Source: Lachnospiraceae bacterium (GTDB taxonomy: Bacteria; Bacillota; Clostridia; Lachnospirales; Lachnospiraceae). Taken from it: 64,000 nt of DNA. The notes under the pieces were generated by a model. It saw only the letters and a list, made by a program, of their open reading frames with translations. It was not told where the DNA came from and did not search any database. The position numbers and the translations under genes are program-made. The stretch covers positions 1 through 64,000 of the forward strand of contig SVED01000001.1 of assembly GCA_015057515.1 (NCBI GenBank). The letters run 5' to 3'. Shown here in pieces: positions 6,101 to 36,842 of the stretch (positions are counted from its first letter, which is position 1; each line of letters opens with the position of its first letter).

Positions 6101-6925
6101 ATGAGAGAATTAGATATTAAGGAAACTCAAAAAATTTCCCTGGAAATACTAAAAACAGTTGCTGATATATGTGAAGAAAAGGGTTTTAGATATTGTCTTA
6201 TATATGGAACTTTAATAGGTGCAATAAGACACTCTGGTTATATTCCATGGGATGATGATGTGGATATAATGATGCCTAGAAAAGATTATGAAGAGTTTCT
6301 TAAGTATTTTGGTGAACATATTAGTGATCATCCACATTTGGAGATTTTTAATCCAACAACCTGTGAAAAATATCCATATATGATTACAAGAATAAGTGAT
6401 AATAGATATTCTATAGATATGGCAAATGAAAAGCCATATGGAATGGGTGTATTTATTGACATATATCCATATGATGGTTTGGGAAATACCAGTGAAGAAG
6501 CGTTGAAGTTTGGAATGAAGGGAGATAGATTATCATCTCTGTGTTATCAGGCAACGAGACAAAGGTATGCTGTAGAGACAACAACTTCAGCACTTAGAAA
6601 GGTACTTAAGTTGCCGGTATTCCTTTTTTCAAAGTTGTGTGGAAAAAATGTATTTCAAAGAAAGCTTGCAAAGCTGGCAGGTCAAAAAGCTTATGACGAT
6701 TGCGAGTATGTGGGCTGTGTAGTATGGCTATCTGGTGGCGAGAAGGATATATTTGAGAGACGTATGTTTGATGAGTGTATAATGCATCCTTATGAGAAAT
6801 ATGAATTCCGTGTTCCTAAGGAGTATGATGCAATCCTCAGACATACCTATGGTGATTATATGCAGCTGCCACCTGAAAAGGATCGTGTAGGTCATCACAA
6901 TTACAAAGTTTACGAGAAAAAGTAA
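6101..6925 (+). CDS. licD: LicD-family phosphocholine transferase
   Basis: CEEKGFRYCLIYGTLIGAIRHSGYIPWDDDVDIMMPRKDYEEF is a canonical LicD motif; GGAGGT RBS places the start at 6101. Confidence 0.93.
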   Translation: MRELDIKETQKISLEILKTVADICEEKGFRYCLIYGTLIGAIRHSGYIPWDDDVDIMMPRKDYEEFLKYFGEHISDHPHLEIFNPTTCEKYPYMITRISDNRYSIDMANEKPYGMGVFIDIYPYDGLGNTSEEALKFGMKGDRLSSLCYQATRQRYAVETTTSALRKVLKLPVFLFSKLCGKNVFQRKLAKLAGQKAYDDCEYVGCVVWLSGGEKDIFERRMFDECIMHPYEKYEFRVPKEYDAILRHTYGDYMQLPPEKDRVGHHNYKVYEKK

Positions 6926-6943
6926 GAAAGTTTTTCTTTATTG

Positions 6944-6972
6944 TTGACAAATGGAAGATAAGTGTGTATATT
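6944..6972 (+). promoter_or_regulatory. Putative sigma-A promoter upstream of licCA
   Basis: TTGACA (6944-6949), 17-nt spacer, TATATT (6967-6972). Confidence 0.6.
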
Positions 6973-7010
6973 GTACTTGTCTGTTCACGAAAACAAGAAA
7001 GGATGAGTTT

Positions 7011-8771
7011 ATGAACAAGCAAGAATTTGATTTGATGAACGCAATATATAACCTTGGTTATGAAAACCAAAGAGAGCTTGCGGAAAGCAGTGGTTATTCC
7101 TTGGGAAGTGTTAATAAGTCTCTCAAGGTACTTGTGGACCAGGGTTATCTCAGCGAAGATATGAAGCTGACATCAAAGGCCAATAAAGAATTTAACGATA
7201 AAAAACCTAAAAACGCCGTAATACTTGCAGCAGGCTACGGAATGAGAATGGTTCCTATAAATACAGAAACACCAAAGGGCTTGCTTTGTATAAACAACGA
7301 GGCGCTCATTGAACGTTTAATAAAACAGCTTCATGAGGTGGGAATTACTGAGATTGATGTTGTTGTAGGTTTTATGAAAGAAAATTACGAGTACTTAATA
7401 GATGAGTTTGGTGTAAACCTTGTAGTAAATGAGGAGTACAACAGAAAAAACAATCTTCATTCATTAAGTCTTGTGGCAGATAAAATTTCTAACACATACA
7501 TTGTTCCTTGTGATGTATGGTGCAAGGAGAATCCATTTAGCGAGAGAGAATTGTATTCCTGGTATATGGTAAGTGACTCCATGGATGATGATAGTGATGT
7601 TTATGTAAATAGAAAAAACGAGTTAGTTGCTGTGGGTGGTCAGGAGCCAGGCAATAAGATGATTGGTATTTCTTACATGACTATGCCAGAGGCAAAGATT
7701 TTAGTAGAAAATATTAAGAATCTTTCTAAGTCAAAGAGGTATGACAACTCCTTCTGGGAGGAAGGCTTATACAAAAATGGCAAAATGATAGTTAATTCAA
7801 GGGTAGTGAAGGATGAAAATGCAGTTGAGATAAATACCTTTGAGCAGCTAAGAGAAATAGACAAGGAGTCAAATCATCTTAAATCAGATGCTATAGAGAT
7901 TATTTGTAAGGCCCTCAATGTAAAGATAGATGATATCAAGAATATTGAAACCTTGAAAAAGGGAATGACCAATCGCTCATTTATTTTTTCTGTTGGGGAT
8001 AACAAGTACATTATGAGAATTCCTGGTGAGGGAACTGACAAGATAATTAATCGTAAACAGGAAGCTGCGGTTTATGATGTCATAAATGGAAAAGGTATAT
8101 GTGAAGACATATATTATATGAATCCTGACAATGGATATAAAATAACAAAGTTCCTTTCAAATACCAGGGTTTGTGATTGCGAAAATGAGGAAGATTTAAA
8201 AATTGCTATGGATAAGCTTAGAAAATTCCATGGCATGGAACTTAAAGTTGATCATGTGTTTGATGTGTTTGAAAAAATTGACTATTATGAATCACTTTGG
8301 GGTGATGTGCCATCGGTATATAAGGATCACAAAGAAACTCGAAGAAAAGTATTTGAGCTTAAAGAGTTTATTGATTCTCAGGAGAAGAAATGGACCCTTA
8401 CCCATATAGATGCAGTTGCTGATAATTTCCTTTTTGTTGAGGGAGAGGAAGTTATGCTTATAGACTGGGAATATGCAGGAATGCAGGATCCACATGTAGA
8501 TATTGCCATGTTTTGCATATATGCCATGTATGATAAAGACGCTATTGACAGGCTGATTGATATTTATTTCGAAAATCAGTGTGACGTGGCTACCAGAGCA
8601 AAAATATATTGTTATATTGCAATGTGTGGATTTCTTTGGAGTAACTGGTGCGAGTATAAAAGACAGCTTGGCGTGGAGTTTGGAGAATATACATTAAGGC
8701 AATATAGATACGCCAAAGAGTTTTATGCATATGCCAAAGAGCTTATAGAAAATGACAGGAGTGGCAAATAG
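7011..8771 (+). CDS. HTH + LicC-like nucleotidyltransferase + LicA-type choline kinase fusion
   Basis: N-terminal wHTH-like NLGYENQRELAESSGYSLGSVNKSLKVL; nucleotidyltransferase NAVILAAGYGMRMVPINTETPKGLL; kinase GMTNRSFIF, LTHIDAVADNFLF, MLIDWEYAGMQDPHVDIAMF. Confidence 0.88.
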   Translation: MNKQEFDLMNAIYNLGYENQRELAESSGYSLGSVNKSLKVLVDQGYLSEDMKLTSKANKEFNDKKPKNAVILAAGYGMRMVPINTETPKGLLCINNEALIERLIKQLHEVGITEIDVVVGFMKENYEYLIDEFGVNLVVNEEYNRKNNLHSLSLVADKISNTYIVPCDVWCKENPFSERELYSWYMVSDSMDDDSDVYVNRKNELVAVGGQEPGNKMIGISYMTMPEAKILVENIKNLSKSKRYDNSFWEEGLYKNGKMIVNSRVVKDENAVEINTFEQLREIDKESNHLKSDAIEIICKALNVKIDDIKNIETLKKGMTNRSFIFSVGDNKYIMRIPGEGTDKIINRKQEAAVYDVINGKGICEDIYYMNPDNGYKITKFLSNTRVCDCENEEDLKIAMDKLRKFHGMELKVDHVFDVFEKIDYYESLWGDVPSVYKDHKETRRKVFELKEFIDSQEKKWTLTHIDAVADNFLFVEGEEVMLIDWEYAGMQDPHVDIAMFCIYAMYDKDAIDRLIDIYFENQCDVATRAKIYCYIAMCGFLWSNWCEYKRQLGVEFGEYTLRQYRYAKEFYAYAKELIENDRSGK

Positions 8772-9497
8772 ATGGCAAATAATAAAGTTGAGAGAGCAAT
8801 TATAATGGCTGCCGGGAAAGGGGATCGAATGAGACCACTCACAAATGAAGTGCCTAAGCCTATGGTAAAAGTCAATGGTACAAGAATGATAGATACCGTA
8901 ATTAAAGGATTGCTTAATAACAAAATTACAGAAATCTATGTTGTGGTTGGTTACATGAAGGAGAAATTTTATGAACTTAGGGAAACCTATCCTGAGATAC
9001 AGTTTATAGAAAATCCATATTTTGATGTATGTAACAATATATCATCCCTATACGTCGCAAGGGAGCATATAGAAAACGCCATTATATTAGATGGAGATCA
9101 AGTCATATATAATGATGAGGTGCTTAAAAAAGATTTTGAAAAATCCGGATACAATGCTGTTTGGACTGACTGTGAAACCAATGAGTGGTTGATGCAGGTT
9201 GAAGAAGATAGCGTAACATCCTGTAGCAGAACCGGTGGTAAAGGCGGCTGGCAGTTGTACAGTGTGTCCAGATGGAGTAAAGAGGATGCAGAAAAATTAA
9301 AACGATATGTGGAAATAGAATTTATAGATAAGGAAAATAGAGACATATATTGGGATGATGTAGCCATGTTCCTGCATTTTGATGAATTTGATTTGGGAAT
9401 ACAAAAAATGCAGAGTGGGGATGTTAAAGAAATTGACAGCTTAGAAGAACTGGTTGATATTGATAAAAACTATAAAGAGTATTTGATGAAGGAGTAA
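8772..9497 (+). CDS. licC: CTP:phosphocholine cytidylyltransferase
   Basis: AIIMAAGKGDRMRPLTNEVPKPMVKVNG, CETNEWLM, DIYWDDV; pattern recalled from pneumococcal LicC. Confidence 0.88.
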   Translation: MANNKVERAIIMAAGKGDRMRPLTNEVPKPMVKVNGTRMIDTVIKGLLNNKITEIYVVVGYMKEKFYELRETYPEIQFIENPYFDVCNNISSLYVAREHIENAIILDGDQVIYNDEVLKKDFEKSGYNAVWTDCETNEWLMQVEEDSVTSCSRTGGKGGWQLYSVSRWSKEDAEKLKRYVEIEFIDKENRDIYWDDVAMFLHFDEFDLGIQKMQSGDVKEIDSLEELVDIDKNYKEYLMKE

Positions 9498-9500
9498 GAG

Positions 9501-11027
9501 ATGGGAACAAAAAATGAAAAAAAGAGAAAAATTGACTGGATTATAACTGTAGTTCCAGTTGTAATTATTGTAGGATTAGCAATTTTATTCTTTGTATTTC
9601 CTACACAGTCAAACAATGTTTTAAGTGATGTAAGATTCTTTTTGGGAGATACTTTAGGTACATATTATTTAGTGATTGGATTAGGTATTTTCCTTATATC
9701 GATTTTCTTAGCTACATCTAAGTATGGAAATATTGTTCTTGGTGGAAAGGATGAGAAGCCTAAATATTCATTCTTTACATGGGGAGCAATGATGTTTACC
9801 TGTGGATTAGCAGCAGATATACTTTTTTATTCATTCTCTGAATGGATTTTATATGCAACAGATCCACATATTGCAGAGCTTGGAAGTGTTCAGGACTGGG
9901 CTAGTGTTTTCCCACTATTTCACTGGAGCTTTATTCCATGGGCATTTTATCTTGTATTAGCTGTTGCCTTTGGTTTTATGCTTCATGTTAGAAAAAGACA
10001 TCGTCAAAAATATTCAGAGGCATGTAGACCTATTCTTGGTAAGCACACAGATGGTGTGGCAGGCCGAGTTATAGATTTGTTGGCTGTTTTTGCTTTGTTA
10101 GCCGGAACTGCTACAACCTTTAGTGTAGCAACACCACTTATGGCAAGTGTAATAAATAAGCTTTTTGGTGTTAGCCTTAATACAACTATGGTCACAATAG
10201 TTATCTTAGTTATAACATGTATTATATATACATACACATTACTTCATGGATTTAAAGGAATTGGTATATTAGCAAAGCTTTGTATGTATATGTTCTTCGG
10301 GTTACTCTTATTTGTTTTTATATTTGGTGGAGAGGCAGGATATATTATAGATACAGGAGTTGCTTCTCTCGGTAGAATGATACAAAACTTCTTTGGATTA
10401 GCAACTGAGACCGACCCACTTAGAAACACATCCTTCCCACAGAATTGGACTATATATTACTGGGCATATTGGATGGTATGGTGTGTTGCGACACCATTCT
10501 TCATAGGAAACATATCAAGAGGAAGAACTATAAAGCAGACTATAATAGGTGGATATGTCTTTGGAGTTGGTTCAACATTAGTAAGTTTTATCGTTTTAGG
10601 AAATTACTCACTTGGTAAGCAGCTCAAAGGTGGAGTTGATTTTATAACATCATTTAGCGAGACTGGTGACTTGTATGAATTAATTACGAATATTATTGAT
10701 ACTTTACCATGTGCACCTTTTGTGCTCGTGTTACTGTTGCTGACTATGGTGGCATTTTACGCCACATCCTTTGATTCTATAGCATATACGGCATCTTGCT
10801 ACTGTTATAATAATCTTGATGAAAATGAACAACCACACAAGTTAATTCAGTTAATGTGGTGTATATTATTAATTGTATTGCCTATAGCATTACTTTTCTC
10901 AGAAAGCTCAATGAGCAATATCCAATCTGTAAGTATAATTGCTGCATTCCCAATTGGAATTGTAATGATATTTATAATTTCAAGTTTTATGAAAGATGCA
11001 AAACAATATATGATTTCTGATAAGTAA
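9501..11027 (+). CDS. BCCT-family betaine/carnitine/choline transporter
   Basis: ~12 TM helices; WGAMMFTCGLAADILFYSFSEW and YYWAYWMVWCVATPFFIGNISRGRT BCCT signatures; directly follows licC. Confidence 0.92.
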   Translation: MGTKNEKKRKIDWIITVVPVVIIVGLAILFFVFPTQSNNVLSDVRFFLGDTLGTYYLVIGLGIFLISIFLATSKYGNIVLGGKDEKPKYSFFTWGAMMFTCGLAADILFYSFSEWILYATDPHIAELGSVQDWASVFPLFHWSFIPWAFYLVLAVAFGFMLHVRKRHRQKYSEACRPILGKHTDGVAGRVIDLLAVFALLAGTATTFSVATPLMASVINKLFGVSLNTTMVTIVILVITCIIYTYTLLHGFKGIGILAKLCMYMFFGLLLFVFIFGGEAGYIIDTGVASLGRMIQNFFGLATETDPLRNTSFPQNWTIYYWAYWMVWCVATPFFIGNISRGRTIKQTIIGGYVFGVGSTLVSFIVLGNYSLGKQLKGGVDFITSFSETGDLYELITNIIDTLPCAPFVLVLLLLTMVAFYATSFDSIAYTASCYCYNNLDENEQPHKLIQLMWCILLIVLPIALLFSESSMSNIQSVSIIAAFPIGIVMIFIISSFMKDAKQYMISDK

Positions 11028-11040
11028 AATATAGTTAATG

Positions 11041-11070
11041 AGGGTCTGGCATTTAGCCGGACCCTTTATT
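11041..11070 (+). terminator. Intrinsic terminator after BCCT gene
   Basis: AGGGTCTGGC-ATTTA-GCCGGACCCT then TTTATTTT. Confidence 0.8.
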
Positions 11071-11100
11071 TTCTTTCCCTGTTTTTAGCGTGCGATTTCA

Positions 11101-11129
11101 TTGACAAAATATGACTAAATAGGTATAGT
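11101..11129 (+). promoter_or_regulatory. Putative promoter for CAP/CW protein
   Basis: TTGACA, 17-nt spacer, TATAGT. Confidence 0.65.
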
Positions 11130-11166
11130 TTAATTATAGATTTTGCGGAAGAAGGAGGACTTGAAT

Positions 11167-12363
11167 ATGAAGAATTTTAAGACAAATTTTTCAAGGTTTT
11201 TCGGATTATTTTTTCTAAGTATCTGTTTTGTACTTTTTTGTTATGAGGCGCCTGTTGCTTTTGCGGAAGAAGAGCAGGATCCTTATCTTGTAGAAGATGA
11301 CATTACAGGTTACTGCGATTATGAGCAAGCCTATGAAGTTCTGGCATATGTTAACGTAGAACGTCAAAAGGCAGGACTTAACACTCTTACTATGGACAAG
11401 GAGCTTATGGAGGCAGCCATGCTTCGTTGCGCAGAGATAGTGATAAATTTTGATCATACTCGCCCTGACGGAACAAGATGTTTCACTGTAAGTGATCGAG
11501 CCTATGGCGAGAATATTGCATACGGTCATACAGATTCGTATGATGTTATGTATCGCAATTCTTATGGTGTTGGTTTTATGTATTCACAGGGACATAAAGA
11601 TAACATTTTAAATGAACGTTGGAATTGTGCAGGTATAGGCTGTATCAAGTACAATGGCAGATATTATTGGTGTCAGTTATTTAGTGGATATCAGGCTATA
11701 ACTACCACCAAACCAACTAATGCTAATCGTACTTTTTCTGTAGTAGCCAGTGCTTCGTTTTTCGCACCGGGTTGGCAGTATGGCGGCGGTGATTGGTATT
11801 ATATTTATTCGGATTATTCACTTAAGTCTGGCTGGCAGATGTTAGGCGGCAAGTGGTACTATATGAATAGCAATTATCAGATGCAGACTGGTTGGATTTG
11901 TGATGGTGGCAAGTGGTATTACACTAACTCTAGCGGCGAGATGGTTACTGGCTGGGTATATACCGGAGGAAAATGGTACTATATGAATTCCTCAGGAGCA
12001 ATGCAGACCGGCTGGGTATATACCGGAGGAAAATGGTACTATATGAATTCCTCAGGAGCAATGCAGACCGGCTGGATATACACTGGAGGGAAATGGTACT
12101 ATATGAATTCCTCAGGAGCAATGCAGACTGGCTGGGTATCTATTGGAGGAAAGTGGTACTATATGAATTCTTCGGGAGAAATGCAGACTGGTTGGGTATA
12201 TACTGGAGGCAAATGGTACTATATGGATTCCTCAGGAGTAATGCAGACTGGTTGGAAATATGTAGGAGATAAGTGCTATTATTTCTATGCTAATGGAGCT
12301 ATGGCTGCAAATACATATGTAGAAGGTTACTACCTAAATCCTAGTGGAGTTTGGATTCCATAG
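11167..12363 (+). CDS. Secreted CAP (SCP-like) domain protein with C-terminal choline-binding/CW repeats
   Basis: Signal peptide; CAP-type LAYVNVERQKAGLNTLTMDKELMEAAMLRCAEI...FDHTRPDG...GENIAYG; 20-aa repeats TGWVYTGGKWYYMNSSGAMQ. Confidence 0.93.
   Translation: MKNFKTNFSRFFGLFFLSICFVLFCYEAPVAFAEEEQDPYLVEDDITGYCDYEQAYEVLAYVNVERQKAGLNTLTMDKELMEAAMLRCAEIVINFDHTRPDGTRCFTVSDRAYGENIAYGHTDSYDVMYRNSYGVGFMYSQGHKDNILNERWNCAGIGCIKYNGRYYWCQLFSGYQAITTTKPTNANRTFSVVASASFFAPGWQYGGGDWYYIYSDYSLKSGWQMLGGKWYYMNSNYQMQTGWICDGGKWYYTNSSGEMVTGWVYTGGKWYYMNSSGAMQTGWVYTGGKWYYMNSSGAMQTGWIYTGGKWYYMNSSGAMQTGWVSIGGKWYYMNSSGEMQTGWVYTGGKWYYMDSSGVMQTGWKYVGDKCYYFYANGAMAANTYVEGYYLNPSGVWIP
11821..12300 (+). repeat. 60-bp tandem coding repeats (CW-binding units)
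   Basis: Successive 60-bp blocks align by eye; 11941-12000 and 12001-12060 are almost identical. Confidence 0.95.
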
Positions 12364-12388
12364 TATTTGATCAAATATAAAATATAGC

Positions 12389-12433
12389 AACACCTTCAAT
12401 GTTATATTCTTAATGCATTGAAGGTGTTTTTGT
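12389..12433 (+). terminator. Intrinsic terminator
   Basis: AACACCTTCAAT...ATTGAAGGTGTT followed by T-run. Confidence 0.85.
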
Positions 12434-12458
12434 GTGTTTAAGGACTTGCAGTGGTGAA

Positions 12459-12487
12459 TTGACAAATATGAATGGACTTTGTATAGT
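12459..12487 (+). promoter_or_regulatory. Putative promoter for LRR-CAP-CW protein
   Basis: TTGACA (12459-12464), 17-nt spacer, TATAGT (12482-12487); same boxes as the 11101 promoter. Confidence 0.65.
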
Positions 12488-12534
12488 TGTTATTAAGGAG
12501 AATGTGTACAAATTACAAGAAGAGGAGGAACTAT

Positions 12535-14931
12535 ATGAAGAGGATATTAAACAAATATTTTAAACAGTTTGGTATTTTGATTACTGCTTTTTGTCTGGCG
12601 ATATTTTTGAACTGTGTTCCTGTCTATGCCGGTGAGATTGGCGAGGCAGAGCAGAAAGAAGCAGATGGTGAAATACCACAGCGACCATCAGGATATATTG
12701 TTGATGGGGATGTAGACTATGATACTGAAGTTGCGGCAGCTCAGCGGGGAAACACTACAATTACAAATACTTACACAGTTAGCGACACCATAACCGCAGA
12801 GCTGGATTCCGATGGTGTTCTTACTATCAGAGGATACGGAGCTATAAATGCTGCTGATAATGGTTATCCTGTGTGGTATAGTCAGCGCAGTAAGATAAAA
12901 GAAGTTATTATTATATCTGATACCAGCGTCTCTCCACAGGGTATTCATACAATTGGAGATTCTGCATTCTATTATTGTTCTTATCTCACAAAGATAACTA
13001 TACCTTCAACAGTAACCACCATAGGTGATGGTGCTTTTGCAAATACATCCCTCATTACTATTGAAGGAATGGAAGGTGTTAAAACTTTTGGTGAATATGC
13101 TTTTCAAGGTGCAGATATGACGAGCTTTACTTTCCCTAAGAGCACCACAACAATTGGCAATTATATATTTTATAATGCAACTAGTTTGTCATCTATATAT
13201 ATCCCTGCATCTGTAACATCTATGGGACCAGTCTCCTATGGTAGTACAGCCGTGGAGATAAATGTAGATAGTGCTAACACAACTTATTCTTCCTCGGATG
13301 GAGTGTTATTTAATAAGAAAAAGACTGAATTATTGGATTATCCAAAGTATAAGACAAACACTTCTTATACTATTCCATCTACCGTAACATCTATATCAGC
13401 TTATTGTTTTTATAATCAGAAATATTTGACATCAGTTACAGTACCATCTTCTGTAACAAGTATAGGTACATATGCATTTGCGTATATGCCTTCATTGAAG
13501 TCTTTGACAATACCATCCAGTGTTACCAAAATGGATTGGGGTGTGTGTAATGAAAACGAAGCAATGGAAACCTTTACTTGCTATGCAAAGGTTGAAACAA
13601 CCCCAGGATATATGTGTGGTGGTTGTGATGCATTGACAAAGGTAGTTATAGATGGTCCTAAAAAATTGAGTTACGGTGAATTTGAAGGTTGTACAAAATT
13701 GACAGACGTTTCTCTTTCCAAAACGGTAACAGAAATAGGCAATATGGCATTTTACGGTTGTACTAGCTTAAAGAATATACATTTTCCTGTTTCCATTAGA
13801 AAGATATATAAGAGTGCTTTTACAAATACATTAGTGAGTGATTTTCCAGAATATCTTACTGATACAAATAGCGAAATGTATCAGTTGGTTTATAAAAAGA
13901 GCGTAACCGGAACCTGCAACTATGAAGAAGCTTTCGATGTGTTAGAACTGGTTAATGAAGAAAGAAAGGCAGCAGGTTTGAGCCCTCTTACAATGGATAA
14001 AGATTTGTTAGAGGCGGCTATGTTAAGAGCAGCGGAAACTAGCATAATCTTTTCTCATACAAGACCTGATGGAAGCTCATGCATGACTGCATGTGATAAA
14101 ATGTGGGGCGAAAATATTGCTTGGGGATATGCTTCGGCAGAGTCTGCTATGTCTGCATGGATGAATTCGTCAGGCCATAAGGGTAATATATTGGGAAGTG
14201 GCTATACTTCAATAGGTATAGGTTGTTACAACGGCTTTTATTGGGTGCAGTGTTTTGGTAATGGAGATGTAGTAGCAGCTACAGAACAGGCAGATTCTAC
14301 CAGAACCTTCAGCGTAAATATGTCAATAGAAGATCCGGGTTGGTATTTAATCAATAATGGTTGGTATTATTTTTACAAGGATTTGTCTCTCAAAACAGGA
14401 TGGCAGATGATAGATGGTAAATGGTATTTCATGAATGAAAATGCCAAGATGCAGACTGGTTGGGTAAATGATGGAGGCAAGTGGTACTATATGAATTCCT
14501 CAGGAGCAATGCAGACTGGTTGGATATATACTGGAGGTAAGTGGTATTACATGAATTCTTCGGGAGCAATGCAGACCGGTTGGGTATATACCGGAGGCAA
14601 GTGGTATTATATGAATTCCTCAGGAGCAATGCAGACTGGTTGGGTATCTACTGGAGGCAAATGGTATTATATGAATTCCTCAGGAGCGATGCAGACCGGT
14701 TGGGTAAATGATGGAGGCAAGTGGTACTACCTGGACGCTTCGGGAGCAATGCAAACAGGCTGGCTCAATATTAAAGGTATATGGTATTATACAAATGCTT
14801 CGGGCGCAATGGTTACTGGATGGCAGTATATTGATGGAAAGTGTTATTACTTCTATTCAGGGGGAGCAATGGCATACAGTACTTATGTAGAGGGCTATTA
14901 TCTGGATGCCAGCGGAGCATGGGTTAAATAA
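12535..14931 (+). CDS. Secreted BspA-type leucine-rich repeat + CAP domain + choline-binding repeats
   Basis: Signal peptide; IGDSAFYYCSYLTKITIPSTVTTIGDGAF LRR_5 repeats; LELVNEERKAAGLSPLTMDKDLLEAAMLRAAET CAP domain; TGWVYTGGKWYYMNSSGAMQ repeats. Confidence 0.93.
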   Translation: MKRILNKYFKQFGILITAFCLAIFLNCVPVYAGEIGEAEQKEADGEIPQRPSGYIVDGDVDYDTEVAAAQRGNTTITNTYTVSDTITAELDSDGVLTIRGYGAINAADNGYPVWYSQRSKIKEVIIISDTSVSPQGIHTIGDSAFYYCSYLTKITIPSTVTTIGDGAFANTSLITIEGMEGVKTFGEYAFQGADMTSFTFPKSTTTIGNYIFYNATSLSSIYIPASVTSMGPVSYGSTAVEINVDSANTTYSSSDGVLFNKKKTELLDYPKYKTNTSYTIPSTVTSISAYCFYNQKYLTSVTVPSSVTSIGTYAFAYMPSLKSLTIPSSVTKMDWGVCNENEAMETFTCYAKVETTPGYMCGGCDALTKVVIDGPKKLSYGEFEGCTKLTDVSLSKTVTEIGNMAFYGCTSLKNIHFPVSIRKIYKSAFTNTLVSDFPEYLTDTNSEMYQLVYKKSVTGTCNYEEAFDVLELVNEERKAAGLSPLTMDKDLLEAAMLRAAETSIIFSHTRPDGSSCMTACDKMWGENIAWGYASAESAMSAWMNSSGHKGNILGSGYTSIGIGCYNGFYWVQCFGNGDVVAATEQADSTRTFSVNMSIEDPGWYLINNGWYYFYKDLSLKTGWQMIDGKWYFMNENAKMQTGWVNDGGKWYYMNSSGAMQTGWIYTGGKWYYMNSSGAMQTGWVYTGGKWYYMNSSGAMQTGWVSTGGKWYYMNSSGAMQTGWVNDGGKWYYLDASGAMQTGWLNIKGIWYYTNASGAMVTGWQYIDGKCYYFYSGGAMAYSTYVEGYYLDASGAWVK
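14390..14870 (+). repeat. 60-bp tandem coding repeats, near-identical to those in the preceding gene
   Basis: Period-60 blocks sharing long identical stretches with 11941-12240. Confidence 0.93.
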
Positions 14932-14942
14932 TTAGATATCAG

Positions 14943-14983
14943 AAACACTGTACATGTAATTTATGTGTACAGTGTTTTTTTAT
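14943..14983 (+). terminator. Intrinsic terminator
   Basis: AAACACTGTACA...TGTACAGTGTTT followed by T-run. Confidence 0.85.
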
Positions 14984-15135
14984 TGACAATTCATATATAG
15001 TATGATACGCTATGTGTAGCATATTTCTGTTGTTCAATATTTCATTAGTGGCAACTGTTCTAGTTGCAAGATTCAAAGAAATCTATGCTAAAAATCACAA
15101 CACAAATAGCAGGGGATTTCACTGAACACACAAAG

Positions 15136-15161
15136 AATTCTCCTGCAGAGAAAGGAGAATT
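15136..15161 (+). promoter_or_regulatory. Putative RBS-sequestering hairpin
   Basis: AATTCTCCT / AGGAGAATT perfect 9-bp stem, 8-nt loop, contains AGGAG 8 nt before ATG 15166. Confidence 0.7.
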
Positions 15162-15165
15162 TATT

Positions 15166-16200: not shown

Positions 16201-16210
16201 GGGTTATTCG

Positions 16211-16239
16211 TTGAATATTTCAAAGATAATTGATATAAT
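16211..16239 (+). promoter_or_regulatory. Putative promoter of giant CW-repeat gene 1
   Basis: TTGAAT (16211-16216), 17-nt spacer, TATAAT (16234-16239). Confidence 0.65.
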
Positions 16240-16272
16240 GAGGATACGGTTAATATGTAAAGGAGGTACGAC

Positions 16273-26287: not shown

Positions 26288-26301
26288 TACATACACTTTA
26301 A

Positions 26302-26333: not shown

Positions 26334-26342
26334 AGTAATATA

Positions 26343-26371
26343 TTGAAAAAAGATGGAAATAGGGGTAGAAT
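26343..26371 (+). promoter_or_regulatory. Putative promoter of giant CW-repeat genes 4/5
   Basis: TTGAAA, 17-nt spacer, TAGAAT. Confidence 0.65.
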
Positions 26372-26406
26372 AGAAACATTATCAGCAAAAAAAGGAGGTA
26401 TTTTAA

Positions 26407-29400
26407 ATGAAGAAATTCAAGCTAAAGCTTATGCTTGCATTGTCGTTTATGATGAGTTTAATTATAAGCGTTCCAGTATGTGCAGCAGAAGCAGATGCAG
26501 TAGCTACAGACACAGAAGCTGTGGCAGAAGATTCTTTTGTTGAGGAAGAAACAGAGAAAGTAGAAGCTGACACCCAGGGGGTAGATGAGGCTAAGCTTAC
26601 AGAATCTGCGGAGGTTCTTGCAGCGACTACAAATGGTTGGGTGGAGAACTCAAATGGTACATGGTCCTACTACAAAAATGGCACCATGGTAAAGAGTAAA
26701 ATATTAAAGATTGGTAATTATTATTACGGATTTAACAGTAGCGGTATAATGTATGAGGATACTACTTTTAGTATGACCAATCCATATACTGGTATTTACA
26801 GCTACCATCGTGCAAAATATGATGGTACCTTATACGTAAATACTTGGTATGAGGATATATATAATGGTTGGTATTATTATGGTGAGGCCGGCTATGGATA
26901 TGATGGTATATACACAATAGGTGGTATTACATATTTCTTTGATTACGGAAAAATGTTATATGACTGCGCTATTTCTTATAATGGTTCACCTTACTATGTT
27001 AGAAAATCAGGTTCAGTAGTTGCCCTTAACTATAACGGCTGGACTCAGGTTGATGGCAATTGGTTATATACTGAAAATGGAAAGCCTGTTACTAATCAAA
27101 GGAAGAAAATTGGTGGATATTATTATGGCTTTGGTTCCAATGGTGTAATGCTAACTGATAAAGTACAGGGCTTTTATAACGAAAATGACGTATATAAATA
27201 CTACTTGTTTACTTCAGATGGAACTATGAATACTAAGGGATGGTACAAGGATCCAATCTATGGTGATTGGTACTTTAGTTATTCCGATGGTACTGTGGCT
27301 AGAGGACTTACTATCCTGAATGGTGTTACATACTTCTTTAGTGAGTATTCATATTACATGTATGCCAATACCAAGTTTACATATAATGGTGAACACTATT
27401 ATGCAGATTCATCAGGTGTAGTTACTAAATTTAGCAACAATAAGTGGAATCTGTGTAATGGAAGATGGTATTATATGAAGGATGGCGCTCTCCTTACCAA
27501 TGGTATATATGAGATAGATGGTGAAAACTATTGGTTTGATTATAATGGCGTCGTTTATACAAACTATTATGGCTATAGGAATGTTAATAATAAGACCACT
27601 TATTATTACGCAGATGCTAATGGTGTTTTAGCTAGAAATGAGTGGGTATATTACAATGATAGTTGGTACTACTTTGATAACAATTGTAATCCTGTAAATG
27701 GTGCCCAGACTATAGGTGGTAAAAACTATTATTTTTATAATAACAGAATGCAATCAGATACATATCAGTCTGTAAATGGTTATCGCCGTTTGTATGATAT
27801 GAATGGTGTAATGGTAGTGGACAAAACAGGCTGGTATCTGCAAAACGGAGTATGGTATTATTTTTCAAGTCCCGGTGTTCTTGCAAGTGGATTAATCACC
27901 GTAAATGGCAGTACATATTACTTACAGCCAGGGTTATATCAAGAAGGAAACTACCTACGATATAGTAATAAGTTGTACCGTGTTAAGGATAATTCGGGTG
28001 CCCTTACAGAGATGACACAGAATGGTTGGTATGAGGATGGCACAAATACTTTCTATATTAAGGATGGGAAACTACTGTCTAACGGCTGGGTAGAATCTGG
28101 TACCAGCAAATATTACATTTATGATTATCTTTTATGTGCTTCAGGCAGATATTATGTTGACGGAGGTTATTGCATATTTGATCCGTCAGGCAAGGTATAC
28201 ACAAATACATGGTTAAAGTATGGTTCATCATATGTTTACGCTTCATCCACAGGAAAGCTGGTTACAGGAAAGCAGACTATAGGTGGAGTTTCATATGATT
28301 TTGATTCATATGGAAGCCTTAAGACAGGTTATCAGTATTCAGGTGCATCTTTGACTGTATACACAGAAAATGGTACTAAGGTTTACAGCTTAAAGGAAGG
28401 CTGGAACCAGGTAGATGGAAGCTGGTACTATGTTTTTAATGGAAGTATAGTACGTAGTCAGGAGCTTACAATAAGTGGCTTCACATATCGTTTCGATAGT
28501 TATGGTAAGATGTATACGGATTATATATATAACGACTACTACTATGATAAAAATGGAGCTATGGTAAAAGGTGCCTGGATACAGCAGGGTAAGGACTGGA
28601 TGTATGCAAAAGAAGACGGCAAGTTGGTAGAAAATTCCACATACAAAATAAAGGATAAGGTATATTTGTTTGATGGTTATTACATGACTACAGTAAATGA
28701 TTATTATTATTCTTCTTATTATTATGTATTCAATACAGATGGTTCCATAAAATCACAATTAAAAATAAATCCAAATGGATGGAACTATATCGAACATAGG
28801 GCTATATATATGAAAGAAGGAAGTCCTTATTATGGTTGGATGGGCAATGCTTATTTCGAAGATGGTTACAAGGTATATAATGATGTTATCTATGACGATG
28901 ATGCAGAAGCATATTATTGTATAGAGCGTGGAAACTGTGTATACAACAAGTGGTGTAACGATAATTCTTCCTACGCAAAGGCTGATGGAAAGTTAGCGTA
29001 CAACGAGTGGGTATGTCTTAATGGAACCTGGTATTATTTAGATGATATATATTATGTAACAGGTCTTCAGACTATAGGTGGAGTTACATATTACTTTGAT
29101 GACTATGGTAGACTTGTAAAAACCTTTACTACTATAGCAGATGGCTGGCATCAGCTAGGTGATGATTGGTACTATGGAAGAAATGGTGCTTTCGTAGCAG
29201 GTGAATATGTATACGATGGAGGTAGTTGGTATTATTTCAATTATGATGGTGCTATGGCAAATAGTGGCCAATATATGTCCAATGGTAAACAGCGTTCATT
29301 TGGATGGGCAAGTGATACAGTAACTATTCCTGCAGAGCAAAGAGCTGATTATGATGGAGCAACAACTATTACAAACTGGTATTACATAGATGTAGAAGGC

Positions 29401-29865
29401 AATCCAGTATATGGATGGCAAAAAATTGGTGGTGTTACCTATTATTTTGATTATGCAATGGTCACAGGAACAGTTAAGATATATAATGAATTACACAGAT
29501 TTGCCAGCACAGGAGCTTATATCGGAAAAGTAACTACCAAGAACGGCTGGTACTATGACGGCAAGGATTATTACTACTTCAAGGATGGAAAATTAATATA
29601 CGATGAAGTAATGGTTATTGATGGTGTAAGATATGGCTTTGACACAGATGGTAAAATGGTAACAAATGAAACAATGATGGACAATTATACTATTTTTTAT
29701 TATTTCTTTGGTTCATCAGGTGCCCAAGTGACAACTCCTGGTATCTATACAGATAAGTATGGTGATACACTTTACGTTGGAAAGGATGGAAAAGTGTATG
29801 ATGGCTATGTTTATGTCAGTGGACAGATGGTTGGAACAACCATACAGATATATTATAAATATTAG
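26407..29865 (+). CDS. Giant secreted CW-repeat protein 4 (1152 aa)
   Basis: Signal-peptide DNA nearly identical to 22889 gene, more divergent body; same architecture. Confidence 0.88.
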   Translation: MKKFKLKLMLALSFMMSLIISVPVCAAEADAVATDTEAVAEDSFVEEETEKVEADTQGVDEAKLTESAEVLAATTNGWVENSNGTWSYYKNGTMVKSKILKIGNYYYGFNSSGIMYEDTTFSMTNPYTGIYSYHRAKYDGTLYVNTWYEDIYNGWYYYGEAGYGYDGIYTIGGITYFFDYGKMLYDCAISYNGSPYYVRKSGSVVALNYNGWTQVDGNWLYTENGKPVTNQRKKIGGYYYGFGSNGVMLTDKVQGFYNENDVYKYYLFTSDGTMNTKGWYKDPIYGDWYFSYSDGTVARGLTILNGVTYFFSEYSYYMYANTKFTYNGEHYYADSSGVVTKFSNNKWNLCNGRWYYMKDGALLTNGIYEIDGENYWFDYNGVVYTNYYGYRNVNNKTTYYYADANGVLARNEWVYYNDSWYYFDNNCNPVNGAQTIGGKNYYFYNNRMQSDTYQSVNGYRRLYDMNGVMVVDKTGWYLQNGVWYYFSSPGVLASGLITVNGSTYYLQPGLYQEGNYLRYSNKLYRVKDNSGALTEMTQNGWYEDGTNTFYIKDGKLLSNGWVESGTSKYYIYDYLLCASGRYYVDGGYCIFDPSGKVYTNTWLKYGSSYVYASSTGKLVTGKQTIGGVSYDFDSYGSLKTGYQYSGASLTVYTENGTKVYSLKEGWNQVDGSWYYVFNGSIVRSQELTISGFTYRFDSYGKMYTDYIYNDYYYDKNGAMVKGAWIQQGKDWMYAKEDGKLVENSTYKIKDKVYLFDGYYMTTVNDYYYSSYYYVFNTDGSIKSQLKINPNGWNYIEHRAIYMKEGSPYYGWMGNAYFEDGYKVYNDVIYDDDAEAYYCIERGNCVYNKWCNDNSSYAKADGKLAYNEWVCLNGTWYYLDDIYYVTGLQTIGGVTYYFDDYGRLVKTFTTIADGWHQLGDDWYYGRNGAFVAGEYVYDGGSWYYFNYDGAMANSGQYMSNGKQRSFGWASDTVTIPAEQRADYDGATTITNWYYIDVEGNPVYGWQKIGGVTYYFDYAMVTGTVKIYNELHRFASTGAYIGKVTTKNGWYYDGKDYYYFKDGKLIYDEVMVIDGVRYGFDTDGKMVTNETMMDNYTIFYYFFGSSGAQVTTPGIYTDKYGDTLYVGKDGKVYDGYVYVSGQMVGTTIQIYYKY

Positions 29866-29893
29866 GCAATAGCTTTGGAAAGGAGGTTATGCA

Positions 29894-32800
29894 ATGAAAA
29901 AATTTAAGCTCAGGCTTGCAGTGTTGATGTCCCTTATGACCAGTTTGTTTATAGGTGTTCCAGTATGTGCTGCAGAAGCTGATGGAGTGAATATAGAAGC
30001 AGAGGAAAGTACTGAGACAAGCATTGAAGAAGTGGCAGAAAGCACTGAGATAAGTGTGGAAGAAGCGGAAGTGCTTGCTGCAACTACCAATGGCTGGGTA
30101 GAGAACTCAGACGGTACTTGGTCATACTACGAAAATGGTACCATGGCAAAAAGTAAGATACTTTGCATAGGCGGTTTATACTATGGTTTTGATTACACTG
30201 GTGTGATGTATGAAAATACTTTATTTCAGGGGATTAATCAATATGCAGATCAATATGTATCTTATCATTACGCAAAGGCAGATGGTTCTCTGTTAGTAAA
30301 TAGCTGGTATGAAGATTCTTACGGTGAATGGTATTATTTTGGTGAGGCAGGATCTGGACACAATGGTACAAAAAAAATAAATAATGTACTGTATTATTTT
30401 AGCGGTGGTCATATGCTTACGGATACGGTTGTTGGATATGAATACTGCCCTTATTATGTATCAGATTTAGGTGTTGCAACCCCTATAAATGCCAATGGCT
30501 GGACTCAGATTGGCAATGAATGGTTTTATGCTCGTGGCGGACAGCCTGTGAGTAATAAAGTAGTATTGATAAACGGCTCTTATTATGCTTTTGGCGGTGA
30601 TGGACATATGTTGTCCAATGAAGCGGCATCTGTTTATGTATACTTTTCTGATTATGGAAGTAACATGTATACAGTTTGTGCAAAAGCAGATGGTACGCTA
30701 TATACCAACAGCTGGTATCAGGACGCCTATGGCAATTGGTACTATTGTAGAGAGGATGGTACAGTTCCAAGTGGATTATGTACAATCAATGGCAAGCAGT
30801 ACTATTTTGATACTTATGATGGATATATGTATACTAATAGGAGTTTTACACGTAACAAAGTATCTTATTATGCAGATGAGGACGGTATAGTCACAGAGAT
30901 TAAGAATAATACCTGGATTAAGGTCAACGGTATGTGGCGTTACTATAGAGATGGCGCTTACCTTAAAAGCGGTATATATCAGATAGGTTCAGAGTCATAT
31001 TATTTCGATTATAATGCAACATGATGTCTAATTACCGTTTCTCGTATAATGTATCAGGAGTTGGAAGTCGCTATTTTTATGCTAAATCAAGTGGAGCTCT
31101 GGCAAAGAATGAATGGGTATACTCAGATGGTGAATGGTACTATTTTGACGCAAATGGATATGGTTTATCTGGTGAAAAAACTATAGACGGAAAAACATAC
31201 TATTTCTCATCTGGACGTATGATGACTAATTATGCTGTTAGCAATCGTCTCTATGGAGCCGATGGAGTTAAGGTAGAAGGAAAAACAGGTTGGTACCTAC
31301 TTGATGGTGAATGGTACTATTTCAAAAGCTCTGGTGTGTTATATTATGGCATGCTTACCCTAAATGGCAATAAGTATTATTTGAATCCTTCCCTATATCA
31401 AAACTCTAATTATTTCGTCGTTAGCGGTATTTTATACCAAGCAAAGGATAAAAACGGTGTTCTTACGGCTATAACAAAGGATGGTTGGTATGAGGATGGC
31501 TCATATACCTACTATGTTAAGGATGGAAAGGTATTTAGTAATGGTTGGGTAACCTCAGGTACCAGCAAATACTATATAGCCGGTAATCATATGGTATGCA
31601 ATAATTATCATTTCTATATATCTGGTAGCTACTATGCCTTTGATGCCACAGGTAAGATGTTTACAAACACCTGGTTAAAGTATAACTCATCTTATGTATA
31701 TGCTTCATCCACAGGTGCTCTTGTTACCGGAAAGCAGGTTATAGGTGGTGTTACATATGAATTTAATACTGATGGAACTTTAAAGGATAGTCTTAGTGTT
31801 TCTGGAGCTGTAATAACTGAATGTACAGATTATGGCACCAAAACCTATACCCTTAAAGCAGGCTGGAATGAGATAAATGGAGTATGGTACTACGTTTTTA
31901 ATGGAGCAGTGGTTAAAGGTACTACCATGAATATAGGCGGGTTTACTTATCGCTTTGATTCCATGGGAATGATGTACAAAAATGTAGTATATGGTGGATG
32001 TTATTATGATGCTAACGGAGCAATGAAAAAGAATTGCTGGATAGAACATAATGGAAAATGGATGTATGCCCAAGAAAGTGGAAGTCTTGCTTCTTATGGT
32101 GTATATGAAATAGGTGGAAAAGAATACTTTTTCATAGATTATTATATGGTTGAAGAAGATTTTGCCTATGGTTTCTACATCTATACATTGAATTCAGATG
32201 ATTCAATCAAATCAATAAAACATACCAGCGATGACGGCTGGTATTACGTAAATAATATACCATATATGATAGTTGATGGTAATTTCTACACCGGTTGGAT
32301 AAATGATGCCTATTTTGAAAGAGGTAGAAAGGTATACAACAGCTTACTAACCAAGAACTCAACCTACGGAAAGGATACCTACTACTGCATAGAAAATGGA
32401 AGCCTCGTTCGAAATGCGTGGTGTAATGATGATAGTTCCTATGCAAAGGCAGATGGAACCCTGGCTTGTGATGAGTGGATAAATCTGGGCGGAACCTGGT
32501 ATTATCTTGATGACATTTATTATGTTACAGGTCTTAGGGAAATAGATGGTGTGACCTACTACTTTGATAAGTATGGCAGACTCAGTAAGACATATACCAC
32601 AATATCAGATGGCTGGCATCAGCTTGATACTGGCTGGTATTACGGCAGAGATGGCGTCTTTGTGAAAAATGAGCATGTATATATAGGTGGATATTGGTAT
32701 TACTTTGATTCCAATGGTAGAATGCTGGATTATTATGGCTTAACTGACGGAAGAGAATGGTCTATGGGCTGGCATAAGGTTACAGTACAAAAAACAACTG

Positions 32801-33348
32801 ATGGATATTACAAATTCCCTGATGAAGCTCAGACTGTAACTGGCTGGATATATGTTGATATTGAGGGTAATTCGGTAACTGGCTGGCAAAATATAGGTGG
32901 AGTAACTTATTATTTTGATGACGGCATTATGGTTACAGGTGCTAAATATATTAACGGTGATTTGCATCGCTTCGCAGACTCAGGTGCATACATAGGAAAG
33001 GTCGCTACAAAAGATGGCTGGTACTATGATGGAAAGAATTATTTCTACATATGTAATTATCTTGTATATTACAACAGAATAGAAATAATTGATGGCATAA
33101 GATATGGATTTGATTCTGAAGGTGTTATGGTTACCAATGCAGCTTTTTCGCCTTATTCAAGTTACGATAGTTATGACTTTTATTACTTTGGCTCATCAGG
33201 AGCACAGGTAACAAAAGAAGGTGTATACACAGACAAGTATGGCGATACTGTTTATGTTGATGGAAATGGTCATGCTTATACAGGATATGTGTATATAAGT
33301 GGTAAATTTGTGGGCATGACAAAGCAAAAAAATCTTGATATCTACTAA
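29894..33348 (+). pseudogene. Giant secreted CW-repeat protein 5, interrupted by a 1-nt frameshift near 31016
   Basis: ORFs 29894-31024 and 31021-33348 together match one full-length paralog; inserting one G (aatgcaac to aatggcaac) fuses them as ...YFDYNGNMMSNYRFSYN... Confidence 0.85.
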
Positions 33349-33383
33349 TCTTAACATCTGTTAATATTTGATTATAGGCTATT

Positions 33384-33413
33384 GGCTCAGGGGGAATCCC
33401 CTGGGCCTTTTTT
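33384..33413 (+). terminator. Intrinsic terminator
   Basis: GGCTCAGGGG...CCCCTGGGCC followed by TTTTTT. Confidence 0.88.
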
Positions 33414-33500
33414 GATGCATAAGTAAATATATATTTACTTTTCTTGTTGGTGGAAAAATGGTAAAATATCATTACAATTTTTTAAGAAGGAGGTAGATAT

Positions 33501-36500
33501 ATGAGAAAGTTTAATCTTAAACTTATGCTTGTGCTTTCACTTGTGATGTGTCTTTTTGCGAGCGTCCCTGTATGTGCGGCAGAAGCAGATGGGGGTGAGG
33601 TTCTTGCTGAGACCACAGATGGTTGGGTTGAGAATTCAGACGGCTCATGGTCATACTATGTTGATGGTGCGATGGTATACGACCAGGTATACTATATTGG
33701 TGGTTTCTATTATGCCTTTGATAGTTATGGCAAGATGGTTACTAACGATATGATATATTGTTATAATCCTTATTTTGATAATTCTTGTAATCATTATGCA
33801 AAAGCAGATGGAACCTTATATGTTAATTCATGGTATGAGTATAAGGACGAGTATGGCGATTGCTATTGGTACTATTTTGGTAAGTATGGTAACGGAGTCA
33901 CGGGCTTACAAAATATAGGAGGTACTACATACTTTTTCTGGTATGATGGTTATATGGCTGAAGATACGATTATATATGATTATCAAAAGGAAAGATCATA
34001 TCGTATTACAGATTCAGGTGTTGCTGTAGAATTAAAGGCTAACGGTTGGACTCAGGTGGGCAAAGATTGGTTCTACTGCGTTGATGGTGACTTTTATTCC
34101 GGAGATATTTATAAGATTGGCAACAGCTACTATGGTTTCGATTACGATGGTACGATGTGGGCTGATTGTACATTCTGGCATTACGACCAAGAGACTTATG
34201 AAGATGCCCTTTACGCCGCAAAGGCAGATGGAGCATTATATATGAATGCTTGGTACTTTGATGAAAGAGTGGATGACTGGTATTATCTTGGTGCAGATTG
34301 TAAAGCAGTAGGCGGTCTTCAGACTATAGGCGGAAAGCAGTATTACTTTGGTGAATCTAGTTTCGATATGTACGAGAATTGTTATGTCGACGCTGGTGAC
34401 AAGTGGTTAATTTGCGATGAGTCAGGTGTATGTACTCCCCTTGCTAACAACGTATGGACCAGTTTGAATGGCGACTGGTATTATGTTTTAAACGGTGAAA
34501 TGTGCATTGGTGGCATCTATGAAATAGGTGGCAAAAAGTACAGCTTTGATGGTGAGGGTGTATTAAACACAAATACTATGTATTTTGAGTACACCGACGA
34601 AGGAGAAGTATGCTATTATGCTGATGCTAATGGTGTGCTTGTAGCTAATCAGTGGGTATATGTTAACGAATACAGCTACATGGAGCCTGACTGGTATTAT
34701 TTCGGTGCAGATAGTGCCCGTGTAAAAGGAAAAATCGATATTGGCGGCAAGACATACATCCTTGCACCTTATATGGTAACTGATGAAACTTGGTATGTAG
34801 ACGGAGCCTGGTATCTTGTTGATGAATCAGGTGTGGTTGTAACTGGCAAGACAGGCTGGTATATGCAGTCTGGCAAATGGTATTACATATATAAGGATGG
34901 TTCTTTGTACGAAGGCGTATTATCCCTTGGCGGAACAAAGTACTATATGGTACCAGAAATGGTCTGTAACTCAGATTACATTATTATAGACGACGTGTTA
35001 TATCAGGCAAAGGACACAACAGGTGCTCTTACAGCTATTACTAAGGATGGTTGGTATCAGGATAGTTACTCTTCTTACTATGTGAAGAATGGAAAAGTCT
35101 ACACAGGCTGGGTACAGAGTGGAAATACTTGGTATTATGTAAATCCTAATATGGTTACTGATGATAGAGTATATGAAGATGGCAAGATGTATGAGTTTGA
35201 CAAGGATGGCAAGATGTATGCCAATACATGGATACATATATCAGATGGTTATATGTATGCAACAGCTTCAGGTGCTCTTGCTACAGGAGAATACAAAATA
35301 GGCGGAGTTACTTACAACTTCAATGATTATGGATACCTTATGCAGGGTACTGAAGATGAGGGTACTACACTTACTGTATATACAACTTCAGGAACTGAAA
35401 CTGTTAAGCTAAGTCCAGGTTGGAATCAGGTTAAATCAAAATGGTATTATGTTGTTGACAATCATATAGTTACAGGAACTTTAAATATTGGTAATAACAC
35501 ATTCCGCTTTGATGCTTATGGAGCTATGTATACTGATTGCATAGTAAGCAATTCTTACTACGACAAAAATGGTGCCCTTGTTAAGGATGGTTGGATATCA
35601 TACAATGGCCATTGGATGTATGCAGAAGATGGACGTCTGTACAGCTATGGTATATATGAGATAGGCGGTGTAGAATACTTCTTTAGTGAGTATTATATGG
35701 CTACCTCAGATGTGGATAGTGGTGATCGTATCATACGTATAAATTCGAATGGTGCAATAAAATCATGGGATCCTGTTAATCAAAATGGCTGGAATAATAT
35801 AGCTGGCGAAGCGTATTATTACAAAAATGGAGAACGCTATACCGGATGGGTAGGAGATTCATATTTTGATAATGGATACAAGGTGTATGAAGGTTCTATA
35901 TACGATTCTAACAGTCAGGCTTATTACTACATGGAAGACGGCAAATGTGTCTATAATGCTTGGTGTGGCTGGGGTGATATGTGTTTTGCTCAGGCAAATG
36001 GTAAATTAGTAGACAAGGGATGGCTTAACAAGGGTGGTACATGGTACTACTTTGAAGATTGTTATGCTGTGACTGGTGCAAGATGTATTGATGGAGTGAA
36101 CTATTACTTCGATAGATATGGTAGACTTGTAAAGACATTTACATCTTTATCAAATGGCTGGTATAGCGTAGACGGCAACTGGCTTTATGCAAGAGATGGA
36201 AGATTTGTAAGAGAAGAAACTATATATGTTGGCGGTTACTGGTATTATATGGATTACGAAGGTGTTATGAAGACCTATGGTAATCGTAATAAAGATGGTA
36301 GATTAATCTGTTCTTCATGGGTATATGAAGATGACAAATGGTACTATTACGGTGCAGATGGTGATAACGTTAATGGCTGGCATAAGATTGCTGGTGTATG
36401 GTATTATTTTGACGGTGCTATGGTTACCGGTTGTTTCTTGATTGAAGATAAGCTTTACAAGTTTGCTGATTCAGGTGCATACATTGGAGAAGTTAATATG

Positions 36501-36842
36501 AATACCGGTTGGTACAAGGACGGATCAGAATATTATTACTTTGAAAATGGCGAAGTAGTTAAAGGACAGATTAAGACCATAGGCGGCATTATGTATGGTT
36601 TTGGTAGAGATGGTGTTATGATGGCTAATCAAGCGACAAATACATATCTGGGAGTTTACTATTTCGGCGCAAATGGTGCAAGAGTCACAAAATCCGGTAC
36701 ATATACAGATGCAGATGGTGGAACCATATATGTGGATTCAAGGGGAATGGCTCATACAGGTTATACTTATGTGAATAACAGCATCGTATATATGACTGGT
36801 TACACATGGGATTGGTTAAATATTGGACAAGTTAAGTATTAA
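33501..36842 (+). CDS. Giant secreted CW-repeat protein 6 (1113 aa)
   Basis: Signal peptide SVPVCAAEADG; CW-like repeats throughout; C-terminal SIVYMTG shared with protein 1. Confidence 0.88.
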   Translation: MRKFNLKLMLVLSLVMCLFASVPVCAAEADGGEVLAETTDGWVENSDGSWSYYVDGAMVYDQVYYIGGFYYAFDSYGKMVTNDMIYCYNPYFDNSCNHYAKADGTLYVNSWYEYKDEYGDCYWYYFGKYGNGVTGLQNIGGTTYFFWYDGYMAEDTIIYDYQKERSYRITDSGVAVELKANGWTQVGKDWFYCVDGDFYSGDIYKIGNSYYGFDYDGTMWADCTFWHYDQETYEDALYAAKADGALYMNAWYFDERVDDWYYLGADCKAVGGLQTIGGKQYYFGESSFDMYENCYVDAGDKWLICDESGVCTPLANNVWTSLNGDWYYVLNGEMCIGGIYEIGGKKYSFDGEGVLNTNTMYFEYTDEGEVCYYADANGVLVANQWVYVNEYSYMEPDWYYFGADSARVKGKIDIGGKTYILAPYMVTDETWYVDGAWYLVDESGVVVTGKTGWYMQSGKWYYIYKDGSLYEGVLSLGGTKYYMVPEMVCNSDYIIIDDVLYQAKDTTGALTAITKDGWYQDSYSSYYVKNGKVYTGWVQSGNTWYYVNPNMVTDDRVYEDGKMYEFDKDGKMYANTWIHISDGYMYATASGALATGEYKIGGVTYNFNDYGYLMQGTEDEGTTLTVYTTSGTETVKLSPGWNQVKSKWYYVVDNHIVTGTLNIGNNTFRFDAYGAMYTDCIVSNSYYDKNGALVKDGWISYNGHWMYAEDGRLYSYGIYEIGGVEYFFSEYYMATSDVDSGDRIIRINSNGAIKSWDPVNQNGWNNIAGEAYYYKNGERYTGWVGDSYFDNGYKVYEGSIYDSNSQAYYYMEDGKCVYNAWCGWGDMCFAQANGKLVDKGWLNKGGTWYYFEDCYAVTGARCIDGVNYYFDRYGRLVKTFTSLSNGWYSVDGNWLYARDGRFVREETIYVGGYWYYMDYEGVMKTYGNRNKDGRLICSSWVYEDDKWYYYGADGDNVNGWHKIAGVWYYFDGAMVTGCFLIEDKLYKFADSGAYIGEVNMNTGWYKDGSEYYYFENGEVVKGQIKTIGGIMYGFGRDGVMMANQATNTYLGVYYFGANGARVTKSGTYTDADGGTIYVDSRGMAHTGYTYVNNSIVYMTGYTWDWLNIGQVKY

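Follow-up and report, generated by a model that had tools for sequence, protein, structure and literature searches.

A lic-type gene block and two classes of secreted repeat protein in a Lachnospiraceae polysaccharide locus

Can a bacterium keep the genes that place phosphocholine on its surface together with the genes for proteins that dock on it? Bacteria known to combine phosphocholine display with choline-binding proteins are mainly pneumococcus and its relatives, and the question is raised here by a 64,000-nucleotide stretch of DNA from a Lachnospiraceae bacterium (the window; G000:C42:1-64000). The source genome, G000, is a 2.15-Mb draft in 117 contigs and is 85% complete. Genes of the lic type occupy positions 6089-11027 of the window and are followed at 11143-36842 by a series of secreted repeat proteins. 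An earlier note on this DNA had described the two sets as a self-contained surface-display module with eight proteins carrying choline-binding-type repeats. As a gene block the observation is real: open reading frames and Pfam matches place LicD, a LicA/LicC fusion, LicC, a BCCT transporter and the repeat proteins where the note had put them. Our preferred interpretation, to which we give a probability of roughly 0.72, is that a Lic-type phosphocholine-decoration operon lies inside a surface-polysaccharide locus and that surface proteins are encoded after it, next to the genes for the ligand on which they dock, six large members of the series forming a second, probably glycan-bound class. This holds as an inference where the lic genes and the canonical-repeat pair are concerned; it is unproven for the six large proteins. 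The sequence analysis itself establishes which genes, domain families and repeat classes are present, which folds are predicted and that the linkage recurs; each catalytic step, the acceptor polymer and every ligand are deduced from these.

The lic genes and their likely products

Homology provides a full set of candidates for the import, activation and transfer of choline, in agreement with the earlier note. LicD (6089-6925, + strand) aligns with the full 227-position Pfam LicD profile (E 1.5e-43), which places it in this phosphotransferase family, at family level only; its proposed role is to move phosphocholine from CDP-choline onto a glycan. The next gene (7008-8771, +) encodes a single polypeptide in which Pfam recognizes a winged helix-turn-helix (wHTH) domain, a LicC-like nucleotidyltransferase domain and a LicA-type choline kinase (E 2e-20). 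The longest reading frame begins at 6951 (6951-8771), and we prefer the conserved start at 7008 because an MNxxE motif marks the beginning of our alignment (A1) and the longer start overlaps with a promoter-like site (6944-6972). The kinase domain appears to be a LicA, with the HID..NF and DWEY catalytic motifs retained and Streptococcus pneumoniae LicA (4r77, 107 bits) as its best solved relative. The wHTH domain is also present in most named relatives of the fusion; a palindrome scan of 68 regions upstream of licCA for its operator returned mostly terminator-like hairpins and no common element.

The separate LicC (8772-9497, +) scores 122 bits against pneumococcal LicC (1jyk), its best solved relative, versus 41 bits against PntC, and retains the D-x-D, TNEW and YWD motifs. 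The LicC-like domain of the fusion has P-C-D and FWE in place of the D-A-D and YWD of LicC, and these residues (P186, C187, D188, W269 and E270, counting from the start at 6951) do not vary across a five-genome alignment. PMC6697681 gives D105 and D192 as LicC positions that differ from PntC; on the 1jyk alignment, by our own count with an offset of 20, they correspond to the first Asp of D-A-D and the Asp of YWD. These choline-specific acidic residues are kept in the separate LicC and not in the fused domain, so the separate enzyme is the likelier CTP (cytidine triphosphate):phosphocholine cytidylyltransferase and source of CDP-choline. The final gene (9501-11027, +; Pfam BCCT, E 6e-126) encodes a transporter proposed to import choline, whose closest solved relative is DddT (293 bits, versus 179 bits for choline transporters).

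In the pathway that we propose, the BCCT protein would import choline, the kinase domain of the fusion would phosphorylate it, the separate LicC would convert phosphocholine to CDP-choline, and LicD would move phosphocholine onto a polymer built by the flanking glycan genes. Two secreted proteins encoded immediately downstream, one with a CAP domain and one with LRR and CAP domains, would use their canonical choline-binding repeats to attach to that polymer without a covalent bond, in the manner of pneumococcal choline-binding proteins. A distantly encoded GH25 muramidase may use the same phosphocholine handle. The locus resembles the pneumococcal lic1/lic2 system in its LicA, LicC and LicD homologues and in the accompanying secreted proteins with canonical 20-residue repeats, which include the choline-repeat muramidase in the source genome and a Pce-like protein in the lic locus of another lineage. 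It differs in using a BCCT-type importer instead of LicB, in the fusion of LicA to a wHTH and an atypical LicC-like domain, in the adjacency of the ligand genes to two choline-repeat genes, and in its polymer genes.

The genes are contiguous, as the description of one block implied, but they appear to form several transcription units. A strong intrinsic terminator-like hairpin with an 11-pair stem and a T-rich tail lies just 3' of the BCCT gene (11040-11066, +) and would close the lic operon; near-identical TTGACA-17-TATAGT sites at 11101 and 12459 precede the two canonical genes; and terminator-like hairpins separate most of the large genes, which also have promoter-like sites of their own. 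These sites are consensus matches in the sequence rather than measured starts or ends. We rejected the whole block as one operon on account of the hairpin after BCCT and the others between most large genes, and favor instead a single lic operon accompanied by several surface genes that are transcribed separately.

Two classes of secreted repeat protein

Two-tryptophan hairpins are far more frequent in the repeat proteins than chance would allow, at 8-12 per protein compared with 0.35-1.11 in shuffled sequence. The label of CW/choline-binding-type repeats merged two distinct repeat architectures.

The first is seen in the secreted CAP-domain protein (11143-12363, +; CAP E 1.5e-10, Choline_bind_1 E 2e-46) and the secreted LRR-CAP protein (12487-14931, +; LRR_5 E 1.6e-59, CAP E 1.5e-15, Choline_bind_1 E 1.6e-47). 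The smaller protein has eight two-tryptophan hairpins, and in both proteins the spacing is exactly 20 residues in 7 of 7 intervals, where shuffling leads one to expect 0.35-0.55 hairpins in all. Both therefore carry consecutive 20-residue repeats with both tryptophans, and they fit the standard choline site, to which one repeat contributes a pair of aromatic residues, as a rule tryptophans, and the following repeat a third, as a rule tyrosine (PMC4929436). The repeat domain of 11143-12363 is modeled at a pLDDT (predicted local distance difference test) of 84, and the top six fold matches to this model are Pce, CbpJ and CbpF, at 36-41% identity; sequence matches of the canonical proteins likewise point to Pce, CbpJ and CbpF. 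Both are probably pneumococcus-like choline-binding proteins.

The second architecture is that of six large proteins which are secreted and consist of repeats throughout. Between the canonical pair and these six lies an Rpn-type nuclease/transposase gene (15064-16200) that breaks the series. The six genes, all on the + strand, encode protein 1 (16273-19185, 970 residues, with a superrepeat of ~66 residues), protein 2 (19340-22771, 1143 residues), protein 3 (22889-26287, 1132 residues), protein 4 (26407-29865, 1152 residues), protein 5 (29894-33348) and protein 6 (33501-36842, 1113 residues). They form one tandem paralogue family with 44-85% identity from end to end: proteins 2 and 3 are 84.5% identical, protein 4 is 63% identical to protein 3, protein 1 is 44-49% identical to the other five, and protein 6 is 45-49% identical to the others. 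Protein 5, the seventh in the series of eight, is split between two reading frames (29894-31024 and 31021-33348) by a frame change near 31021 (31015-31025). Its halves align end to end with the paralogues, and the count of eight repeat proteins stands if they are taken as one split gene and not otherwise; assembly error, pseudogene and phase variation cannot be told apart as the cause of the split.

Each large protein has 10-12 two-tryptophan hairpins, mostly ~66 residues apart and almost never consecutive, with 0-1 consecutive pairs among about 10. A Pfam scan detected no above-threshold domain other than repeats in any of the six. They match Choline_bind_3, while a PF01473 search of the genome (E<=0.001) gave few matches in them and none in protein 1. 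The best sequence matches of protein 3 are to CROP domains (137 bits) and GTF-S (97 bits), with CbpF far lower at 41 bits. TIGR04035, the glucan-binding 65-residue repeat model, was scored for proteins 1 and 6 and gave 66 and 112 bits, both below the curated cut-off of 147.7. A 439-residue segment of protein 3 is predicted as a beta-solenoid (pLDDT 90.7), to which Foldseek finds CROP domains, the choline-binding module of LytB (rank 4) and GTF-S all close. Fold was rejected as a test of ligand for these proteins, given that Foldseek ranks CROP and the LytB module near each other.

By sequence the large proteins look more like sugar-binding CROP and glucan-binding solenoids than choline modules. 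They share with CROP and GTF domain V a beta-hairpin solenoid and sequence similarity, but they have no toxin or glucansucrase catalytic domain and the whole secreted protein is repeat. Like CbpF and the LytB choline-binding module they are made up of repeats, canonical and non-canonical in those proteins, but their two-tryptophan hairpins are non-consecutive and the similarity to CbpF is weak. Accordingly, the idea of eight equivalent choline-binding proteins is not supported, repeat spacing and best matches splitting them into two classes; of the proposed readers beside the ligand genes, two are bona fide choline-binding-repeat proteins and six of the eight have no canonical choline-repeat architecture. 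The earlier note had allowed that repeats binding glucan or another ligand would count against it, and for the six large proteins sequence similarity leans that way.

Linkage across genomes and the surrounding locus

Of 37 genomes in the genus, 4 (G000, G002, G020 and G027) contain strong choline repeats (PF01473, E<=1e-6), and all four are among the six genomes that carry LicA/LicC-type genes of this operon, the others being G019 and G026. This perfect nesting has a one-sided Fisher p of 2.3e-4, with shared ancestry ignored. In each of the four genomes a choline-repeat gene adjoins the lic genes (the window; L134 in G002; L026 in G020; L028 in G027). The linkage of lic and choline-repeat genes is not due to chance.

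The module of LicC/LicA fusion, LicC and BCCT is found in records labeled Lachnospiraceae, Ruminococcaceae, Erysipelotrichaceae, Coriobacteriales and spirochaetes, and BCCT accompanies the fusion in 66 of the 80 loci of a named scan. Linkage to choline-repeat genes recurs in Lachnospiraceae, Ruminococcaceae and Coriobacteriales and is absent from most lic operons. Recurrence in the genus and in unrelated gut lineages (L051, L052 and others) means that the arrangement is not unique to the window. LRR_5 proteins with choline repeats are linked to lic genes in the window, L146/L051, L044 and L052, and in Candidatus Mediterraneibacter vanvlietii a gene beside the lic operon (L120:6174-8768) combines choline repeats with an N-terminal domain that matches pneumococcal Pce at 152 bits. 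A search for Pce homologues in the genus found none, but the set had no positive control and the result is uninformative. In RUG460 all 23 choline-repeat matches fall in two genes adjoining lic. Some other carriers have dozens of choline-repeat proteins genome-wide, and linkage means little in these because such proteins abound. At L052:7055-20866 six choline-repeat proteins surround one lic operon, in a genome very rich in such repeats. No report of lic-linked choline-repeat proteins in gut clostridia was found in the open-access literature searched, a body that leaves most subscription journals outside it.

Polysaccharide genes flank the lic/repeat block on both sides. Downstream, a gene set recognized by Pfam (37024-53209, +) includes dTDP-rhamnose genes, a TagD-like gene, MBOAT, glycosyltransferases, a Wzy-like gene, a flippase and a CDP-glycerol-type transferase; from its position, its polymer is a candidate acceptor for phosphocholine. 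Self-containment is the part of the earlier description that fails: besides this flanking set, the source genome has three further choline-repeat proteins outside the block, one of them the GH25 muramidase on another contig, and a second LicD-family gene (G000:C62:36202-36876).

A Stealth-family protein of the sugar-phosphate transferase type is encoded at 35-1033, on the left edge of the polysaccharide locus. The same locus contains, at 55351-59703, a phosphonate-tailoring set comprising a PepM triple fusion (NTP_transf_3, CTP_transf_like and phosphoenolpyruvate mutase), an iron-containing alcohol dehydrogenase and a thiamine pyrophosphate decarboxylase. The triple fusion is already known from 42 proteins (PMC6697681). 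The pnt phosphonate-tailoring clusters near lic genes described there share these three genes and a CTP-activated head-group chemistry with the window; the lic set of the window is LicC-like and not PntC-like, and the available part of the published pnt description mentions no choline-repeat proteins. An aminotransferase (59% identical), followed by a long gene whose start is similar (DUF5717 in G000), borders the polysaccharide locus both in the window genome and in G020 (L021:2841-7643, L026:17581-19998), and these shared borders suggest that one conserved position in the chromosome holds a variable locus.

Weighing the explanations

Several observations weigh against our interpretation. A canonical choline-repeat protein lies within the fetched flank in just 13 of 80 lic loci (12 of 54 when the locus spans 15 kb or more), and 35 of 58 lic genomes have no strong choline-repeat match anywhere at the thresholds used, a rough count in which ten genomes were chosen for linked genes and the linked choline-repeat protein of L062 was missed by the whole-genome threshold. 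With so many lic genomes having no linked choline repeats, or no strong ones at all, the operon alone does not imply docking. Part of the linkage may stem from genes duplicating in tandem within a variable polysaccharide locus, other phospho-groups can be carried by LicD proteins, the substrate preference of the BCCT protein is unproven, with DddT nearest and choline assigned from context, and canonical repeat spacing is missing in six of the eight repeat proteins. One could suppose that the lic operon serves a lipid such as phosphatidylcholine, or another glycan such as a capsule outside the wall, with the choline-repeat neighbors coincidental. LicD does match, with a score under the cut-off, the NCBIfam diacylglycerol cholinephosphotransferase model, and linked choline-repeat genes are missing from most lic operons. 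We nevertheless regard this as very unlikely, in view of the perfect nesting of choline repeats in lic genomes, the physical linkage in all four and the Pce-like neighbor in one lineage.

That the six large proteins are glycan-binding adhesins functionally unrelated to the lic operon, gathered by a variable polysaccharide locus that collects surface genes, has somewhat less than an even chance of being correct. Their CROP/glucan-type similarity, their own terminators and promoter-like sites, the transposase-like gene that stands between them and the canonical pair, and a distant relative in G002 on a 7.4-kb contig with no lic genes all fit this proposal; strong relatives, however, occur in one other genome among 61 relatives, too few to test independence from lic, and anchorless all-repeat proteins need some surface ligand, of which this locus would make one. 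It is rather unlikely that all eight proteins are instead choline-binding proteins on a phosphocholine polymer, with each spaced two-tryptophan hairpin of the large six forming one choline site with the next hairpin. The Choline_bind_3 matches, the number of hairpins retained, the absence of any other visible anchor and the resemblance of the model to the LytB module would be accounted for, but the best sequence matches, the scarcity of consecutive hairpins and the few PF01473 matches are difficult to reconcile with it. On our preferred interpretation of a phosphocholine operon followed by two protein classes, the large six would be secreted beta-solenoids with about one binding hairpin in every three, most likely bound to glycan (the polymer of the locus, or a sugar from host or diet) and perhaps to choline at a few sites.

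A bolder and quite improbable extension is that gut clostridia carrying this locus inherit a phosphocholine polymer together with its dedicated readers, the six solenoids being a new reader class whose binding hairpins, one in three, line one face and grip both the choline and the backbone sugar of the polymer. The arrangement itself is a variation on the known phosphocholine/choline-binding system, recurrent but not typical of lic operons. Phosphocholine is recognized by C-reactive protein and by natural anti-phosphocholine antibodies. If our interpretation is confirmed, many gut commensals would display this host-recognized group, the dietary nutrient choline could govern which surface proteins they retain, and culturable strains would allow ligand and reader to be deleted jointly.

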